Below, piece after piece: positions 7,797 to 36,098 of a stretch of DNA of 64,000 nucleotides (positions are counted from its first letter, which is position 1; every line of letters starts with the position of its first letter). The notes beneath the pieces are model-generated. The model saw nothing but the letters and a program-made list of their open reading frames with translations, did no database searches and was not told where the DNA came from. Location: positions 1 through 64,000 of the forward strand of contig NZ_LQAQ01000099.1 in the NCBI RefSeq assembly GCF_001583495.1. Reading direction: 5' to 3'. The DNA is from Flammeovirga sp. SJP92 (GTDB lineage Bacteria > Bacteroidota > Bacteroidia > Cytophagales > Flammeovirgaceae). A program made the translations under genes and the position numbers.

Positions 7797-7873
7797 TATT
7801 TCTTTGATTGATCTAAGAGCGAAATTAAATATGGATTATCTATAGAAAAATAACAGGGGTCAATACCATAAAA

Positions 7874-7923
7874 AAGAGTTAAGGATAAAGAACAGTTATT
7901 TTAGTTCTTCATCCTTAACTCTT
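7874..7923 (-). terminator. Terminator of the Nfu gene
   Basis: A long stem of about 18 bp (7874-7893 with 7904-7923, one mismatch region near the loop), with AT-rich flanks giving T-runs on both strands. It lies 29 bp beyond the Nfu stop codon. Confidence 0.75.
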
Positions 7924-7951
7924 AATTTTTTATTCAAAAAGTGCTGTTGTA

Positions 7952-8557
7952 TTAAACGCCTTCCGCTACTACTTCTTTCACTTGAGGAACCATTCTTTTC
8001 AGTAAGTTCTCAATGCTCATTTTAAGTGTGAAAGTAGAAGAAGGGCAACCAGAACATGCACCTTGAAGTAATACTTTTACGATTCCAGTTTCTTCATCAA
8101 AAGAGTGGAATTTGATAGCACCACCATCCATTTCAACGGCTGGCTTGATGTACTCATCTAAAACACCTCTGATTTTTTTGATGGCTTCAGACTCGGCCTT
8201 TTCTACGATAGTCTCATCAATATTCTCGAAGATTGGCTTTTCAGCTTCGAAATACTCCAATAAGAACTCTTTGAACTTAGGAATGATTTCGATCCAGTCT
8301 GTACTTCCCTCCTTTTTTGTAATTGTGATAAAATTACTCATATAGAAGATACGCTCTACTTCCTCAAACTTTTCGAAAAGCTCTTTTGCTAAAGGAGAAA
8401 CCTCTGCTTCTTCGATGCTTGGGAAATCATAGCTCTCACCACCTTTCAATAACATAAAACTCAACATGAATTTCATGGAATTCGGGTTAGGGTTCGCTTC
8501 TGTATATATCGTTATATTTTGCTTTGGACGTCCTGCTTGTTGTGTTGAATTTTCCAT
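7952..8557 (-). CDS. Nfu/NifU-type iron-sulfur cluster scaffold protein
   Basis: 201 aa from ATG at 8557; a longer frame to 8623 would run through the promoter (a TATATTTG -7 element sits at 8586-8579 on the minus strand) and is rejected. Residues about 20-105 are the Nfu N-terminal domain (ITIYTEANPNPNSMKFML and FYMSNFITITK). Residues about 120-195 are the NifU C-terminal domain with the cluster-binding CSGC motif in LLQGACSGCPSSTFTLK. The protein assembles and delivers 4Fe-4S clusters to apo-enzymes in the cytoplasm. It is divergent from lipoyl synthase, a radical SAM enzyme that depends on Fe-S supply; Nfu proteins are known to restore the LipA auxiliary cluster, so the neighbourhood is functionally sensible. 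Confidence 0.92.
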   Translation of the reverse strand: MENSTQQAGRPKQNITIYTEANPNPNSMKFMLSFMLLKGGESYDFPSIEEAEVSPLAKELFEKFEEVERIFYMSNFITITKKEGSTDWIEIIPKFKEFLLEYFEAEKPIFENIDETIVEKAESEAIKKIRGVLDEYIKPAVEMDGGAIKFHSFDEETGIVKVLLQGACSGCPSSTFTLKMSIENLLKRMVPQVKEVVAEGV

Positions 8558-11254: not shown

Positions 11255-13600
11255 ATGTTTAAAATAATTCAATTTATATTATTTACTTCAATAACAACGA
11301 ATTTTTTATACGCTCAATCCACGTTTGATGGGAAGGTAGTAAATGTAGAAAATGCTCCTGTTGAATATGCCAATATTGTATTGTTAAATGAGTCAGATAG
11401 TTCAATTATAAATGGAACATTTTCTGATTCTACTGGTTTTTTTAAAGTATCAAGTAATCTACCGAATGTAATTTTACAGGTAAGTTCAGTAGGTTACCTT
11501 ACAAAGACCATGAAAGTTGGTAATACGCACAACCTTGGAGAGGTAGTATTGTCTTTTGATCAAAAATTGAAGGAAGTAGTTGTAAGAGATCAGAATATTT
11601 TTGAGAAAAAAGAAGATAAATTTATTTTCCATGTGAGTGATTCTCCTTTAGAAAAAGAAAGTTCATCTATTGAGATGTTACAGAAAGTACCTATGATATG
11701 GGTAAATCATAACAATCAAATCTTATTAAGGCAAGAAGCTGCAACTATTCTTATAAATGGTCGAAGATTAAACTTAAAAGGAGATGCTTTAAGCGATTAT
11801 TTAAATAGTCTATTGACGAAGGATATAGATAGGATTGAGATCCAAACGAATAATTCGGCAGAAAACGATGGGGATATAACTGGTAGTGTTATTAATATAG
11901 TATTGAAAAAAGAAAGTGCTGGTTATAATCTAAACCTGAAAACTTATTATAGTACATATTTTAATAATTTGTATGATTTAAATAACTCTATGTCATTTAA
12001 TTATGCAAAAAGTAAATGGCAGTTTTATTTTACACTAGGACTAGTAAATGAATTAGGTAAAGAAGATTATAAATCTAACTTTTTGATTAAAGAGTCTTTA
12101 GAAAATCAAACTACTGAAGGTTATTATGATCATAAGATTAATAATAATGTTAATAGCAGACTTGGTACAATTTTTAAAATTTCACCTAAACAAGAAGCTG
12201 GTTTAGAATTTTATATTAAGGATGATAATTTAGGACTAAATAATAACAATAATCTTTTAATTTCTGATGTTAATAATATTCCAAAAGTGGAAGGGAAAAC
12301 CTATTCTACTTATGATATTTCGACTCAGATGGTAGATTTCATATTGAACTATAGTTTCAAGTTAGACACCTTGGGAAGCAAAGTTACATTCGTTGGTGAT
12401 TATATAAATCATACATATAATAATGATTTATTTAATTCATCGGAGTATGACTCGCCTGAATATGATGGTGTGGAAGATTTGAATAAGTCCAATAATTTAA
12501 CTGAAATGTATTCCATTCAATCTGATTTGAATAAAAAGTTTATAAGCGGATTAAACCTTTTAGTAGGTATAAAACATCTTTCGACTTTAAGAGATAATGT
12601 TTTAGATTCCAAGACTGTTATTGATGGACAATTTGTGCCTAATGAAAGAACTAACCATTCTAAAAATAAAGAATATATAAACTCTGCATATACTTCTATT
12701 GGTTATGCTTTAGATGAGAATTATATAAAAATTGGATTACGAGGTGAACATACACAATTTGAAAACAATGATCTGACCAATAGTTCAAAGGTAAATGGTA
12801 GTTATTTGACATGGCTTCCTTCTATATATTATTCTAGCAAGCTAAAGAACGACATATCTATTTCATTGAGTTATTCTAAAAGGTTGACAAGACCTTCCTT
12901 TAGAATATTAAATAATAACGTGAACAAGATTAATGATTATAGATATGATATTGGAAATCCTAACTTAACACCTGAATTGCTAGATAAGTATGAGTTTACT
13001 GTCTCGAAAAGAAATCATAATTTATCTTTTTACTTTAATCACAAGAAAGATGTAATTACAGGGTTGTGGAGTATGGAAAACGATATTGCTGTTCATCAAA
13101 ATGTGAATAATGGGACTACCCAGCAGTACGGTGTAGAATATAACTACAACAAAAAAATTACGGAGTGGTGGAAAATAAAACTGATAGGAGAACTTTTCGA
13201 AAGAAAAATAGTTAATCAAAATCTCAATCAAGCTACAGCATTTTTCTATATGTACAATGGCTTTTCATTGAATAAAACAATGTCTATTGATCTTTTTGGA
13301 AATTATATGTCCCCCTTTTTAAGCGGAACTTATTTTAATGCTGAAAACTACTCTTTAAATCTTATTATCAAGAAATCTTTTCTTAATAATAAGCTTAATA
13401 CAAGGCTCTATCTTACTGATATTTTGAATTCAATTAGAGTTAGAAATGAATCCGAGTTTCAAGATTCATACTTTGATTTCTATCAGAAAAAGAACACAAG
13501 AAGTATTGTATTATGGCTAAGCTATACTATTAACTCCAAGAATAAATCATCAAAGAAAAAACGTAACACTTCGAATAATCAGAATAAACATAGATTATAA
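11255..13600 (+). CDS. Outer-membrane beta-barrel protein with carboxypeptidase-regulatory-like N-domain
   Basis: 781 aa. Signal peptide 1-20 (ending LYAQ), then a CarboxypepD_reg-like beta domain (about 22-100: STFDGKVVNVENAPVEYANIVL), a plug-like domain (about 120-215: IEMLQKVPMIWVNHNNQILL, TILINGRRLNL, IDRIEIQTNNSAE) and a long barrel of the outer-membrane-protein type related to TonB-dependent receptors (PF14905-like). No clear N-terminal TonB box. Codon use is very AT-rich, like the three following genes. It sits 56 bp before the peptide precursor on the same strand, so it may be the outer-membrane passage or receptor for the peptide; that link is inferred from position only. Confidence 0.82.
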   Translation: MFKIIQFILFTSITTNFLYAQSTFDGKVVNVENAPVEYANIVLLNESDSSIINGTFSDSTGFFKVSSNLPNVILQVSSVGYLTKTMKVGNTHNLGEVVLSFDQKLKEVVVRDQNIFEKKEDKFIFHVSDSPLEKESSSIEMLQKVPMIWVNHNNQILLRQEAATILINGRRLNLKGDALSDYLNSLLTKDIDRIEIQTNNSAENDGDITGSVINIVLKKESAGYNLNLKTYYSTYFNNLYDLNNSMSFNYAKSKWQFYFTLGLVNELGKEDYKSNFLIKESLENQTTEGYYDHKINNNVNSRLGTIFKISPKQEAGLEFYIKDDNLGLNNNNNLLISDVNNIPKVEGKTYSTYDISTQMVDFILNYSFKLDTLGSKVTFVGDYINHTYNNDLFNSSEYDSPEYDGVEDLNKSNNLTEMYSIQSDLNKKFISGLNLLVGIKHLSTLRDNVLDSKTVIDGQFVPNERTNHSKNKEYINSAYTSIGYALDENYIKIGLRGEHTQFENNDLTNSSKVNGSYLTWLPSIYYSSKLKNDISISLSYSKRLTRPSFRILNNNVNKINDYRYDIGNPNLTPELLDKYEFTVSKRNHNLSFYFNHKKDVITGLWSMENDIAVHQNVNNGTTQQYGVEYNYNKKITEWWKIKLIGELFERKIVNQNLNQATAFFYMYNGFSLNKTMSIDLFGNYMSPFLSGTYFNAENYSLNLIIKKSFLNNKLNTRLYLTDILNSIRVRNESEFQDSYFDFYQKKNTRSIVLWLSYTINSKNKSSKKKRNTSNNQNKHRL

Positions 13601-13656
13601 TGGCGGAAACCGAAAAGCCAGCAATGAGTAGGTCATAACCAAATCATTTAATTAAA

Positions 13657-13842
13657 ATGAAATCTAAAAAAACGTTAGAACAACTTGCAAAAGAACTTTC
13701 CAAATTAGAAGAAAATCAATTAGGAAAATTGAAGGGTGGATTCGTAGCTTTTTCTTCTTTAAAAGCTAAAGAATTACCATCAACAGATTCTGTTTCTGTA
13801 TCAGTTTCAGGAAATTGTTCATGTTCATGTACATGTTCTTAA
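13657..13842 (+). CDS. RiPP precursor peptide with GG leader and Cys-x-Cys-x-Cys-x-Cys core
   Basis: 61 aa. Residues 1-28 look like the Bacteroidota double-glycine leader: basic start, amphipathic helix with repeated Leu/Glu (EQLAKELSKLEENQL) and GKLKGG at 23-28, the expected C39 cleavage point. The 33-residue core (from Phe29) has a Lys/Glu stretch, then SVSVSVSG, then NCSCSCTCS with cysteines at 54, 56, 58 and 60. The strict alternation of Cys and Ser/Thr is unusual. The next gene encodes a radical SAM/SPASM enzyme and the one after a C39 peptidase-ABC exporter, so the peptide is very likely modified, cleaved after Gly28 and exported. Modification chemistry (Cys thioethers to alpha or beta/gamma carbons, or another type) cannot be read from sequence. 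Confidence 0.85.
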   Translation: MKSKKTLEQLAKELSKLEENQLGKLKGGFVAFSSLKAKELPSTDSVSVSVSGNCSCSCTCS

Positions 13843-13848
13843 ATTAAA

Positions 13849-13913
13849 GCCATTTAACTAATTAATGGCCTAATTTCTAACTATTTCAATGGAGAAGTTT
13901 ATCTTCTCCATTG
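13849..13913 (+). promoter_or_regulatory. Two stem-loops between precursor and maturase genes (attenuator-like)
   Basis: Hairpin 1: GCCATT/AATGGC (13849-13854 with 13864-13869). Hairpin 2: a perfect 11-bp stem (13887-13897 with 13903-13913) with a TTTAT loop. Neither is followed by a real T-run, so they probably act as a partial terminator or 3' end protector, making more precursor than enzyme. That is common between a RiPP precursor gene and its maturase gene; the function here is inferred. Confidence 0.6.
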
Positions 13914-13935
13914 ATGTTCTATCAATTTATTTACT

Positions 13936-15237
13936 ATGCTATACAGCCAATTTAACTCTATACTTTCTTATAAAAACAACTATATATTGCATAATGCCTT
14001 CACTAACAAATTCATGTATCTTAATCCTCTTTTGAAAGAGTTGATTGAAGCGGCTAAGAATGAGGACAATTTGGAAGGCTTGAGGGAAATTCACCCTGAT
14101 TTCTATCAACAATTAGTGGAACTAGGATTCTTTGTAAAACAATCTGATAATGAGATAGAAAAAGTTAGACAAAGAATTGATGAAGTAAACTATAATGAAG
14201 AAGAATATTATTTGATAATCAATTCTACTATGAACTGTAATTTTGGTTGTTGGTATTGCTATGAAACTCACAAAAAAAACTCCCATATTTCAGATGCTTC
14301 ATTACAAAAAATAAAAAAGTTTATAGAAAATACCCTCGAAAAAAATAAGAAAATAACAAAATATACTATTCAGTTTTTTGGAGGAGAACCATTACTTGAT
14401 TACAAGAAAAGTGTATTGCCAATTATGGATTATGCTTTTAAAAAAGCTCAGCAAAGAGGTATTATATTATTATTAAATTTCACAACGAATGGTTATCTCA
14501 TTAGTGATGATATGATTCAGGATTTCTTAAAGTATAAGGTTAATGGTTTTCAAATCACTTTGGATGGAAATAGGGATGAACACGATAAAGTTCGTTTTGT
14601 TTCAAAGACCAAAGGATCATATGATAAAATCGTTGAGAATATTAAGAAGATAGTCCGTAATAAAATGTCAGTTGTATTGAGAATCAATTACACTGAGAAA
14701 AACCTTAAAGAATTAGATTTAGTTTTTGAAGACCTTGAAGATTTAGAATTAGAGTACAGGTCATTGATTACCTTCTCTTTGAATAAAGTATGGCAGGAGA
14801 GTAATAATAATTTAGGTGAAAAAGTTTCTACATTTTTATCCTTAGCTACAAATAAAGGATTTTCATTGCCAGATGCTTTATTATCTGATCGTGTTGAAAA
14901 TTCATGTTATGCTGATAAATTTAATCAGGCAACGATAAATTATGATGGGAATGTCTATAAATGCAATGCCAGAGATTTCACAGATGAGAATAAAGAAGGT
15001 ATACTAAATGATGAGGGAGTTGTTGAGTGGAATGAAAAGCGAACATTTAGAATGGAACATAAGCTTAAAAATAAAGCATGCCTTGAATGTAGAATATTAC
15101 CTATTTGTGGAGGAGGCTGTAGTCAAAATATGATAGAACACGTGGACAAAGATTATTGTGTAAATGATTTTGACGAGGCTAAAAAAGATGATATTATTTT
15201 AAGTATGTTTTTATCTGAAAATGTTGAGAAAATTTAA
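13936..15237 (+). CDS. Radical SAM/SPASM peptide maturase
   Basis: 433 aa. Residues 15-70 resemble a PqqD-like peptide-recognition fold (YILHNAFTNKFMYLN ... QLVELGFFV). The radical SAM cluster motif is C101-x3-C105-x2-C108 (CNFGCWYC), with FGGEP following. The C-terminal SPASM domain is complete: C324-x13-G-x4-C343, then C382-x2-C385-x5-C391-x3-C395, then C408, enough for two auxiliary 4Fe-4S clusters. Enzymes of this layout install thioether, C-C or other crosslinks on ribosomal peptides. The substrate is presumably the Cys-rich peptide encoded just upstream. The 3' end overlaps the exporter gene by 17 bp, so the two are translationally linked. Signs of a transferable cassette: the gene is more AT-rich than the flanking housekeeping genes. 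Confidence 0.92.
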   Translation: MLYSQFNSILSYKNNYILHNAFTNKFMYLNPLLKELIEAAKNEDNLEGLREIHPDFYQQLVELGFFVKQSDNEIEKVRQRIDEVNYNEEEYYLIINSTMNCNFGCWYCYETHKKNSHISDASLQKIKKFIENTLEKNKKITKYTIQFFGGEPLLDYKKSVLPIMDYAFKKAQQRGIILLLNFTTNGYLISDDMIQDFLKYKVNGFQITLDGNRDEHDKVRFVSKTKGSYDKIVENIKKIVRNKMSVVLRINYTEKNLKELDLVFEDLEDLELEYRSLITFSLNKVWQESNNNLGEKVSTFLSLATNKGFSLPDALLSDRVENSCYADKFNQATINYDGNVYKCNARDFTDENKEGILNDEGVVEWNEKRTFRMEHKLKNKACLECRILPICGGGCSQNMIEHVDKDYCVNDFDEAKKDDIILSMFLSENVEKI

Positions 15238-17428
15238 ATTATATAGGCAATATGACCAAATGGATTGTGGGCCAGCTTGCGTTAGGATGCTTACTAAATA
15301 TTATGGGAAAAATTATTCATTAGACTCTTTGAGGGAATTGTGTTCGATTGCTACAGATGGGGTCTCTTTACTAGGTATTGACGATGCTTTAAAATCTTTA
15401 GGTTTCTCTACAATAGGTTGTAATGTTAGTATTGATCAACTAGAAGAGGATGTTCCTTTACCATGTATTTTGCATTGGGAACAAAACCATTTTGTCGTTC
15501 TATATAAGATTAAGAAAGATACATTTTCAAATACATCTAAGTTCTACATTGCAGACCCTGGAGCGGGTTATAAAAGCTTTAAGAAAAATGATTTTTTAAA
15601 ATATTGGGGTGAAAAAGCAAATGACACACTTCATTCTGGAACTGTTCTATTGGCTACCCCTTCTGAAAATTTTGAATCTATAGAAGAAGAAGGATCTTTT
15701 TCAATGAGTTTGAAGTATATTTTACTGTATCTAAAAAAGTATAAGAAATACTTTCTACAGCTATTTTTTGGTATCCTTCTTACAAGTTTTATCCAGATTC
15801 TTCTTCCTTTACTAACTCAATCAATTGTTGATGTTGGAATAAAAAACCATGACATCGATTTTATATATTTGATATTGATAGCTCAAATGGGGCTAATAAT
15901 AAGTCGGATGTTTGGAGATTTTATTCAGAAATGGATTTTACTACATATCAGTACAAGAATTAATATATCATTGGTTTCAGATTTCTTTATTAAGTTGATG
16001 AAGCTACCTATGAGCTTTTTTGATACAAAATTAATAGGTGATATTTTACAGCGAATAAGTGATCATGATAGAGTTGAACAATTTTTATCTTTCCATATTC
16101 AAAACATTGTCTATTCATTTTTTACATTCATTGCATTTGGTTCTGTATTAGCTGTTTATAGCCTTAAAATATTCTCAATTTTTTTAGCTGGTAGTTTTTT
16201 ATATACCCTATGGATTTTTTTCTTTTTGAGAAAGAGAAGAGAACTTGACTATAAAATGTTTGAACAAAAAGCACTTAGTCAAAGTAAAACTTACCAATTG
16301 ATATCTGGTATCCAGGAAATAAAACTTCAAAACTACGAGAAACAAAAACGATGGGAATGGGAAGATTTACAGACAGACCTTTTTAAAACTAATATTAGCT
16401 TTTTAAAGTTAGAACAGATCCAAACCTCAGGTAATGTTCTTATCGATGAATCTAAAAATATATTGATTACTATTATCGCTGCCACTTCAGTGGTTAATGG
16501 AGAAATAACTTTGGGTATGATGTTGGCCATTCAATATATAATAGGACAGCTTAAAGCACCGATTGATCAGGTAATAAGTTTTATATACGATTTCCAGAAT
16601 ACACAAATCAGTTTAGAAAGAATTAATGATATTCATTTAAAGAAAAACGAGAATAGAAGTAATGATCAAGAAGATAGAAGTATTAAAATAGACAATGATA
16701 ACTTGATCCTTAATAATCTCTCTTTTAAATATAACAAGTACTCATCATTTGCACTGGAGGATATTTCTTTATTTATTCCTAAAGGGAAGGTGACAGCAAT
16801 TGTAGGAGCTAGTGGAAGTGGTAAAACGACATTAATTAAATTATTGCTTCAGTATTACGAAGTGAGTTCAGGAGAAATAAAAGTTGGAAATACAAACTTA
16901 TCAAATTTTAAAACTGATATATGGAGAAATCAATGTGGAGCAGTAATGCAAGAAGGTTTTATTTTTTCTGATTCAATAGCGAATAACATTATTGTAGGTT
17001 CAGAGTTTGATGCTGAAAGGTTATTATATTCTTCAAAGATGGCTTGTATAGATATTTTTGTTGATAGTTTACCTCTGAAATATGACACTGTTATTGGAGA
17101 AGAAGGACAAGAGCTTAGCCGAGGGCAAAAGCAAAGAATATTAATTGCAAGGGCCATTTATAAAAATCCTAATTTTTTATTTTTAGACGAAGCTACAAAT
17201 TCTCTAGATGCAAATAATGAAAAACAAATCACCGAAAATCTCGAAAGTTTTTATCAAGGAAAAACTGTTATTGTAATTGCACACCGACTTAGTACTGTAA
17301 AATATGCTGATCAGATTGTTGTTTTAGAAAAAGGTAAGGTAAAAGAAATAGGTAATCATGAATCGTTAACAATGGTCAGAGGAGCATATTATCATCTTGT
17401 AAAAAACCAATTAGAGTTAGGAGATTAA
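15221..17428 (+). CDS. C39 peptidase-containing ABC exporter (PCAT)
   Basis: 735 aa. Residues 8-135 are a C39 peptidase: the QMDCGPAC motif gives nucleophile Cys16, with His90 (NHFVVLY) and Asp112 (IADPG) as partners, so it should be active. Residues about 165-460 carry six membrane helices of an ABC exporter. The nucleotide-binding domain follows: Walker A GASGSGKTT near 529-537, signature LSRGQKQR, Walker B FLFLDEATNSLD and H-loop AHR. Such transporters cut the leader after Gly-Gly and pump the core out of the cytoplasm. The precursor with KLKGG at 13657 is the evident substrate. It shares ATGA with the next gene (17428). Confidence 0.95.
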   Translation: MLRKFKLYRQYDQMDCGPACVRMLTKYYGKNYSLDSLRELCSIATDGVSLLGIDDALKSLGFSTIGCNVSIDQLEEDVPLPCILHWEQNHFVVLYKIKKDTFSNTSKFYIADPGAGYKSFKKNDFLKYWGEKANDTLHSGTVLLATPSENFESIEEEGSFSMSLKYILLYLKKYKKYFLQLFFGILLTSFIQILLPLLTQSIVDVGIKNHDIDFIYLILIAQMGLIISRMFGDFIQKWILLHISTRINISLVSDFFIKLMKLPMSFFDTKLIGDILQRISDHDRVEQFLSFHIQNIVYSFFTFIAFGSVLAVYSLKIFSIFLAGSFLYTLWIFFFLRKRRELDYKMFEQKALSQSKTYQLISGIQEIKLQNYEKQKRWEWEDLQTDLFKTNISFLKLEQIQTSGNVLIDESKNILITIIAATSVVNGEITLGMMLAIQYIIGQLKAPIDQVISFIYDFQNTQISLERINDIHLKKNENRSNDQEDRSIKIDNDNLILNNLSFKYNKYSSFALEDISLFIPKGKVTAIVGASGSGKTTLIKLLLQYYEVSSGEIKVGNTNLSNFKTDIWRNQCGAVMQEGFIFSDSIANNIIVGSEFDAERLLYSSKMACIDIFVDSLPLKYDTVIGEEGQELSRGQKQRILIARAIYKNPNFLFLDEATNSLDANNEKQITENLESFYQGKTVIVIAHRLSTVKYADQIVVLEKGKVKEIGNHESLTMVRGAYYHLVKNQLELGD

Positions 17429-17892
17429 TGAACACATTTGATAAAAACCATCTTTTAAGAAGTAAGAAAGTTCAAGAATTATTAGATCAAGAACTACCTT
17501 GGATGATGAGGTTAGGGATATTGATAATTTTGATACTTGTATTGTTTTGCAGTTTGTTCTTTATCACAAGAAAATGGGATTCTAATTTTGAAGCGAAAAT
17601 TGAGTTACATAAAAAAGCAGACTTCGTATATAAAGCAAAATTGAAAATGCCACTAGGTCTATCCGAAACTATTTCAGAAAAAACGAGTACCTATGTAGAA
17701 ATGTCTCATATTAACGGGGGAAAGCACCTTACTAAGATTCTTAATATTGATAGTATATTGAATATCAATAATGAGATAGTCTATTATTATGTAACCTTAG
17801 AATCTGTTGATAGTGTAGGAATAAATGTTGACTCTATTTTAGATATAGCTAATGTGGAAATACCTAGGTCATTATCAAATCTTGTTAAGTAA
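17428..17892 (+). CDS. Very short HlyD-like membrane protein of the peptide exporter
   Basis: 154 aa; ATG overlaps the exporter stop, and a Shine-Dalgarno-like TAGGAG lies just upstream. The N terminus (LLRSKKVQELLDQELPWMMRLG) resembles the start of Bacteroidota HlyD-type adaptors (RSEEVQ...P.W..R.G followed by a helix), with one membrane segment at about 28-47. The remaining 105 residues are periplasmic and look beta-rich (VYYYVTLESVDSVG resembles the C-terminal beta-barrel part of HlyD proteins). There is no room for the lipoyl/barrel-sandwich domain or the coiled-coil hairpin that reach an outer-membrane channel. I infer a minimal adaptor or accessory subunit; alternatively it is an unrelated immunity protein. 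Confidence 0.65.
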   Translation: MNTFDKNHLLRSKKVQELLDQELPWMMRLGILIILILVLFCSLFFITRKWDSNFEAKIELHKKADFVYKAKLKMPLGLSETISEKTSTYVEMSHINGGKHLTKILNIDSILNINNEIVYYYVTLESVDSVGINVDSILDIANVEIPRSLSNLVK

Positions 17893-35913: not shown

Positions 35914-35986
35914 TGTCCGATGGTGTAATTGGCAACACGTCTGATTTTGGTTCAGAAGAGTCCAGGTTCGAGACCTGGTCGGACAA
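35914..35986 (+). tRNA. tRNA-Gln (anticodon UUG), copy 1
   Basis: 73 nt. Acceptor stem TGTCCGA/TCGGACA with U1-A72, a glutamine identity pair. Anticodon stem TCTGA/TCAGA with loop TTTTGGT and anticodon TTG at 35947-35949. T-arm CCAGG-TTCGAGA-CCTGG and discriminator A at 35986. The 3' CCA is not encoded. The arms all pair, so it is intact. Confidence 0.95.
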
Positions 35987-36021
35987 CTACCGAAAATATT
36001 TGAGACCTTTCTTTGAAACAC

Positions 36022-36094
36022 TGTCCGATGGTGTAATTGGCAACACGTCTGATTTTGGTTCAGAAGAGTCCAGGTTCGAGACCTGGTCGGACAA
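36022..36094 (+). tRNA. tRNA-Gln (anticodon UUG), copy 2
   Basis: Identical over all 73 nt to the copy 108 bp upstream, with anticodon TTG at 36055-36057. The 35-nt linker between the copies is unlike the sequence before copy 1 or after copy 2, so the duplicated unit is essentially the tRNA body. Both are probably cut from one transcript starting at the promoter at 35850-35881. Confidence 0.95.
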
Positions 36095-36098
36095 CAAA

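Follow-up and report, generated by a model that had tools for sequence, protein, structure and literature searches.

What does a radical SAM/SPASM enzyme make of a small peptide whose core closes with four cysteines two residues apart, and what becomes of the product? The question is raised by a five-gene locus at positions 11255-17892 of a 64,000-nt stretch of DNA (the window, positions 1 to 64,000 of contig NZ_LQAQ01000099.1) from the 8.49-Mb genome of Flammeovirga sp. SJP92. We find that the five genes are a complete locus for a ribosomally synthesized and post-translationally modified peptide (RiPP), and a divergent member of a rare, mobile family of clusters. It is likely a horizontally moved RiPP cluster in which the SPASM maturase makes thioethers from the core cysteines, the C39-ABC protein exports the peptide and a receptor handles it outside, with the core laid out as a hairpin.

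A first-pass annotation had described five packed genes on one strand, the last three overlapping, as a RiPP locus in which a full SPASM maturase and a C39 exporter accompany a peptide with a GG leader. All five open reading frames (ORFs) were confirmed on the plus strand at the positions given above; the maturase and exporter genes overlap by 17 nt, and the exporter and small-protein genes by 1 nt. The features are:

11255-13600, + strand: TonB-dependent-receptor-like outer-membrane protein, 781 aa (Pfam PF14905, profile matches, AlphaFold model, Foldseek)
13657-13842, + strand: precursor, 61 aa, leader 1-28 ending KGG, core FVAFSSLKAKELPSTDSVSVSVSGNCSCSCTCS (alignment with 33 precursors near the maturase family)
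13789-13839, + strand: core end, S45-V-S-V-S-V-S51, G52-N53, C54-S-C-S-C-T-C60-S61, a candidate modification site
13842-13876 and 13886-13914, + strand: two stem-loops between precursor and maturase genes (folding against shuffles), with a putative function discussed below
13936-15237, + strand: radical SAM/SPASM peptide maturase, 433 aa, with an N-terminal RRE-like domain (profiles, alignment, predicted structure)
15221-17428, + strand: C39 peptidase-ABC exporter, 735 aa (Pfam)
17428-17892, + strand: protein with a single transmembrane (TM) segment, 154 aa, a remnant-size HlyD-like exporter partner with LRSxxV and TM stretch (alignment with relatives)

Among the five proteins, Radical_SAM, Peptidase_C39, ABC_membrane, ABC_tran and OMP_b-brl_3 scored above their Pfam cut-offs (in the exporter, 113.8 bits for Peptidase_C39, 108 for ABC_membrane and 101.4 for ABC_tran), and the small precursor, with its double-glycine leader, has a modifying enzyme and a C39-ABC exporter as neighbours. 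The precursor reads MKSKKTLEQLAKELSKLEENQLGKLKGG/FVAFSSLKAKELPSTDSVSVSVSGNCSCSCTCS (Gly-Gly at residues 27-28; cysteines at 54, 56, 58 and 60), and its leader aligns with those of 33 other precursors encoded near members of the maturase family. Comparison of leader and core with RiPP families gave a weak match of the leader to the class I lanthipeptide model NF038153 (12.8 bits, cut-off 22), and TIGR04149 (cut-off 25 bits) was absent among the peptide's profile matches up to E 1; the latter model weakly matched two of the 34 aligned precursors (best E 0.0017).

We take the locus to be a real RiPP locus on the strong evidence of its gene context, that is, co-occurrence in 28 maturase loci. In 27 of these loci the maturase has GG-leader peptides nearby, most of them rich in Cys (the leaderless copy of Flammeovirga aprica, described below, being counted); the exception is locus L078, where the only peptide ORF seen is of a different kind. 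An outer-membrane gene of the same profile occurs in 22/28, as judged with a profile trained on 14 of the proteins; this count includes opposite-strand genes at L009 and L059 and a split one at L064, the F. aprica gene lies on another contig, and the L038 contig measures 3.4 kb. A C39-type exporter was found in 20/28 by a short motif near the ORF start, a test that misses L010, L039, L044 and two ABC ORFs of L078; the exporter ORFs of the first three probably fail it through starts predicted too far upstream. The cluster is thus co-conserved in other Bacteroidota, and the pairing of GG-leader peptides with the maturase strengthens, short of proof, the earlier suggestion that this enzyme acts on this peptide.

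The maturase carries the CxxxCxxC motif of radical SAM enzymes (C101/105/108) and the seven-cysteine pattern of SPASM domains (C324/343/382/385/391/395/408), all invariant in 25 aligned relatives, so that the description of a full SPASM enzyme stands even though the Pfam SPASM score (16.6 bits) falls below its own cut-off of 21.5. Among the best 25 of 65 matched NCBIfam families, none reached its cut-off: the highest scores (cut-offs in brackets) were TIGR04463 162.9 (525), geopeptide 156.3 (400) and CefB 153.4 (600), followed by FlmE/OhkG 132.5 (500) and PapB 119.3 (340), and these families also match every one of the 25 aligned members. Neither the RumMC-type sactipeptide model NF035951 (51.7 bits, cut-off 720) nor the ranthipeptide models NF047865 (PapB, 119.3 against 340) and TIGR03974 (SCIFF, 83.7 against 425) recognized it. 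The predicted structure (pLDDT 85) begins with three strands and three helices modelled at pLDDT >90, which we take to be the layout of an RRE. Its top Foldseek matches were CteB (5why, 5wgg; TMq 0.67-0.70) and TigE (8vpo; 0.68). CteB itself carries an N-terminal RRE (PMC8172795; this and the other papers given by identifier are cited from excerpts).

The maturase family is rare yet spread, in a scattered manner, over the Bacteroidota. The nearest maturase, 99% identical, is that of F. aprica; 4/9 Flammeovirga genomes hold a maturase of the family, the other nine genomes searched in the same taxonomic family hold none, and at the DNA level the window's version is common to only two of the nine, its own genome and F. 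aprica. Profile searches of overlapping genome samples found the maturase in 9/390 genomes for the order, 6/395 for the class and 3/395 for the phylum (the window's own genome included in the last two), in 12/301 for the family of Pedobacter borealis and in 4/8 for one further family, all four of which had been seen before; loci L011-L016, at 22-30% identity, were not counted. A maximum-likelihood tree of 30 maturases leaves several of its deeper forks unresolved and has four long terminal branches; in it the window and F. aprica sequences form a branch of their own (length 1.17) within a 27-row clade (100/99) and outside an eight-row group (99/97) that contains the two other Flammeovirga copies. 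This separation from the other Flammeovirga copies speaks for horizontal transfer. Relatives were also found on three plasmid records, F. kamogawensis p1, Rhizosphaericola mali pB3-10 and a Parabacteroides distasonis plasmid. At the eight loci beside an EamA gene in other Flammeovirga, the genes downstream of the window's cluster went unmatched within 1.5 kb and no empty site was seen.

The 30-kb mobilizable plasmid pB3-10 carries five tandem precursors, a maturase, an exporter and an HlyD-like gene (L093 1977-7771), with no annotated receptor gene in the 13.8 kb around the cluster. At another locus, L042 (6377-8520), six precursor genes encode very similar leaders and diverse cores.

In the draft genome of F. 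aprica the outer-membrane gene ends on one contig, and a second contig carries the core together with the genes for maturase, exporter and small protein; the leader was found on neither contig end (L008 1-262, L025 1-168) and went unmatched elsewhere in the draft. The DNA at the end of the first contig gave 23 match rows in this genome, among them ten near-full copies at 98-100% identity, of which six lie at contig ends, and such repetition probably marks a mobile element there. F. aprica appears to have lost its precursor leader at this repeated element, although in a draft assembly an intact copy may lie elsewhere. Its core reads ...SVSVSVSGTCSCSCTC, with the stop one residue earlier than in the window. 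Between the two genomes, nonsynonymous (dN) and synonymous (dS) divergence are 0.0038 and 0.052 in the maturase and 0.0006 and 0.070 in the exporter; judging by such comparisons, purifying selection acts on the genes for maturase, exporter and receptor. The small HlyD-like gene differs by four synonymous and four nonsynonymous codon changes. We rejected the identity of the two core arms in F. aprica as proof of selection, since a dS of 0.05-0.08 would leave few if any differences in a stretch of this length.

Both the small HlyD-like protein and the barrel recur across the cluster family. The label 'HlyD-like' for the former derives from alignment and not from a direct match: a Pfam search of the 154-aa protein gave no HlyD match, whereas its longer aligned relatives (242 aa) match HlyD_3. 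The relatives form a size series from 242 aa with an HlyD_3 match through 154-178 aa to 62 aa in P. distasonis. The last (L094 12741-12929, on the plasmid) comprises only the LRSEKV motif and one TM-like stretch.

The outer-membrane protein combines a carboxypeptidase-regulatory-like domain, a plug and an OMP_b-brl_3 barrel (PF14905, 233.7 bits); Pfam gave no match for the plug, and profile matches include SusC, the colicin I receptor and FepA. Its AlphaFold model has a pLDDT of 75, and the best 50 Foldseek matches in the PDB (TMq about 0.45-0.58) are, judging by their titles, TonB-dependent receptors. Profile, model and Foldseek thus concur on the plug and large beta-barrel of a TonB-dependent receptor, and the receptor-like profile and model together make it more likely that the protein is a receptor than a TolC-type exit channel.

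How unusual is the core? Cysteine spacing was tabulated for the 34 aligned precursors and for 49 in all, the leaderless F. aprica copy being in neither set; the 49 leave out the no-Cys and one-Cys GG ORFs of L067 and L069 beyond one each, one L078 peptide and one 48-aa L094 peptide. CxCxCxC occurs in 1/49, the window's only; CxCxC in four (the window, L044 and two of L079); and one or more CxC motifs in six. In most relatives the cysteines are spaced by 4 to 12, often in cores of the type NNCxGGNCxxGC. The L044 precursor (7845-8078), whose maturase is a distant homologue of the window's, has 11 cysteines in repeated CxC blocks (spacing 2,6,2,2,6,2,2,6,2,2), and two L079 peptides, also next to a distantly homologous maturase, have cores with GCCQCSC and NCCICTC and score 46.5 and 45 bits with TIGR04149, above its cut-off of 25. 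The string itself is weak evidence: in six frames of the window CxCxCxC occurs twice, the other occurrence lying in a 12-residue stretch between stops, and we rejected its significance on that ground (20 Markov-random windows gave a mean of 0.15 and a maximum of 1).

How might such a core be processed? We propose that the RRE-like domain at the N-terminus of the maturase binds the leader (1-28) and that the enzyme then forms thioether (S-C) links from cysteines of the core; the C39 domain would cleave after Gly28, the ABC part would export the 33-residue product with the small HlyD-like protein assisting, and the TonB-receptor-like protein would deal with the peptide outside, in uptake, sensing or immunity. 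In the most likely layout of the links, the core would fold as a beta-hairpin with its turn at G52-N53, placing S51/S49/S47/S45 opposite C54/C56/C58/C60, with some of these pairs linked. Gly-Asn suits a two-residue turn, as would the Gly-Thr of F. aprica. Both arms alternate, so the register is automatic once the turn is fixed; the DNA of the core end (13789-13839) is built from 6-nt near-repeats, so that slippage is another possible source of the pattern, and the hairpin is put forward as a proposal. In its fullest form, four nested links (Ser45/47/49/51 to Cys60/58/56/54) around Gly-Asn would make a thioether ladder whose product is retrieved or sensed through the adjacent TonB-type receptor; we hold this version only tentatively, and regard it as unlikely. 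In most nested sactipeptides the donor strand comes first; here it would follow the acceptor strand. If true, four links at such density, and links from later cysteines to earlier serines, would be new.

Several observations weigh against thioethers in a hairpin. The maturase has no close homologue of known chemistry, the listed NCBIfam scores lying far under their cut-offs, and its fold leaves the chemistry unfixed, since CteB and TigE differ in theirs. Multiple thioethers are no rule of the family, because L067 (6714-6968) and L069 (8716-8910), in the same maturase clade, have precursors in which the only Cys lies close to the C-terminus, accompanied by other GG-type peptides where Cys is absent or occurs once. 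Across 33 precursors (L044 dropped, kinship of rows ignored), Asn is enriched at -4 of Cys (51 against 28.3 expected from shuffles) and at -1 (48 against 32.9), Gly at -2 (45 against 24.6) and Ser at +3 (21 against 11.6); the enriched Asn, and Ser at +3 only, are not at the positions that the hairpin would use. Finally, in the sactipeptides known by 2019 the Cys precedes its acceptor in the sequence, the reverse of the proposed hairpin (PMC6779426), though sporulation killing factor is numbered Cys22-Met4 (PMC12395415).

The first-pass annotation had proposed links from each Cys to the adjacent Ser or Thr, or across the SVSVSVS strand. Links to the immediate neighbour, be it Ser, Thr or Asn, would give a row of small rings. 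Every core Cys is indeed adjoined by one of these residues, and among the relatives Asn stands at -1 of 48/163 cysteines and Thr or Ser at +1 of 47/157. Precedents exist, which leaves the claim that adjacent cross-links would be new without support: enteropeptin has a six-membered thiomorpholine ring from Cys and N-methylornithine (PMC12395415), neighbours by the size of the ring, and PapB, which accepts CX0-6D, links adjacent Cys and Asp of CX0D in vitro, incompletely (PMC9413430). Yet no single neighbour is kept family-wide (Ser at -1 in 12/163), among neighbour positions only Asn at -1 exceeds shuffles by z 3, and four fused small rings would be strained. We consider such rings doubtful, somewhat more so than the ladder. 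The same degree of doubt attaches to the view that the four cysteines stay largely unlinked and bind metal or form disulfides, with the TonB-type receptor retrieving the loaded peptide. Dense CxC thiols and receptor fold matches that include heme, siderophore and copper transporters would fit it, but Foldseek ranks receptors by fold and not by ligand, the five genes include no other metal-uptake gene, and the maturase family also pairs with Cys-poor and wide-spaced precursors.

Improbable, in our judgement, is an origin of CSCSCTC and SVSVSVS by slippage of the 6-nt unit in a decaying precursor with no special chemistry. The near-repeats of the core DNA and the missing F. aprica leader, with a repeated mobile element in its place, would agree with decay; the window copy, however, is intact, its maturase, exporter and receptor genes are held by purifying selection, and the arms are identical in F. 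aprica, a weak argument at that divergence. Less probable again is action of the maturase on SVSVSVS, by C-C or cyclopropane chemistry on Val with the cysteines secondary: TigE is among the two best fold matches and TvgB makes cyclopropylglycine from Val in repeats (PMC9062424), but the other listed family cores keep Cys and have no SV repeats. A class I lanthipeptide precursor was rejected as hardly credible, given the weakness of the NF038153 leader score and the lack of LanB or LanC domains among the five locus proteins, to which the scan for them was confined.

The intergenic region between precursor and maturase folds at -25.4 kcal/mol against -9.2 for shuffles (z -6.5; 0/200 shuffles as good), and the stem-loop at 13886-13914 has a 12-bp stem without mismatch. 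From the predicted folding, these stem-loops probably act as an attenuator or form an mRNA 3' end, yielding more precursor than enzyme. A search of the whole window with Rfam at gathering scores found two tRNAs and nothing else; these are a tandem pair of tRNA-Gln(ttg) genes at 35914-36095.

With this locus comes a rare family of radical-SAM peptide clusters in Bacteroidota, borne in part on plasmids and usually including a TonB-receptor-like protein, and one maturase clade whose cores range from one to many cysteines, and from CxCxCxC to wide spacing, offers a natural test of how SPASM enzymes choose acceptors. Among the best title and abstract matches in the open-access literature, none was found that treats this cluster family or RiPPs of Flammeovirga. 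The earlier argument for novelty is nevertheless weaker than claimed, as dense Cys/Ser/Thr cores also occur at the TIGR04149 locus L079. TIGR04149 RiPPs (GG_sam_targ_CFB, of Bacteroidota) likewise have a GG leader, a SPASM maturase and C-x-C-x-C cores with Ser/Thr between; they differ in that their model does not match the window's leader and that a profile search of the 12 kb of L079 picked up neither a C39-ABC nor a receptor gene. Nor do known sactipeptides have only wider Cys spacing, as the earlier argument had it: ruminococcin C, also the work of a radical SAM enzyme (RumC/RumMC), has cysteines two apart and hairpin-crossing links (PMC8172795, PMC6779426), with thioethers at Cys3/Cys5 in C1 and Cys22/Cys24 in C2 (PMC8172795), the pairing of the latter two being favoured but uncertain (PMC6779426). 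Its cysteines precede their acceptors, unlike those of the proposed hairpin, and the RumMC model scores far below its cut-off here. CteB (SCIFF) and PapB of the ranthipeptides include, in CteB, the closest fold to the window maturase; their models score below cut-off as well, and the window core has no acidic acceptor after its first Cys. The Bacteroidales clusters of PMC10352776, as far as its excerpts describe them, likewise combine a radical SAM enzyme, a C39 exporter (PCAT, peptidase-containing ABC transporter) and an outer-membrane protein, some of them without a membrane fusion protein, and may overlap with the cluster family described here.

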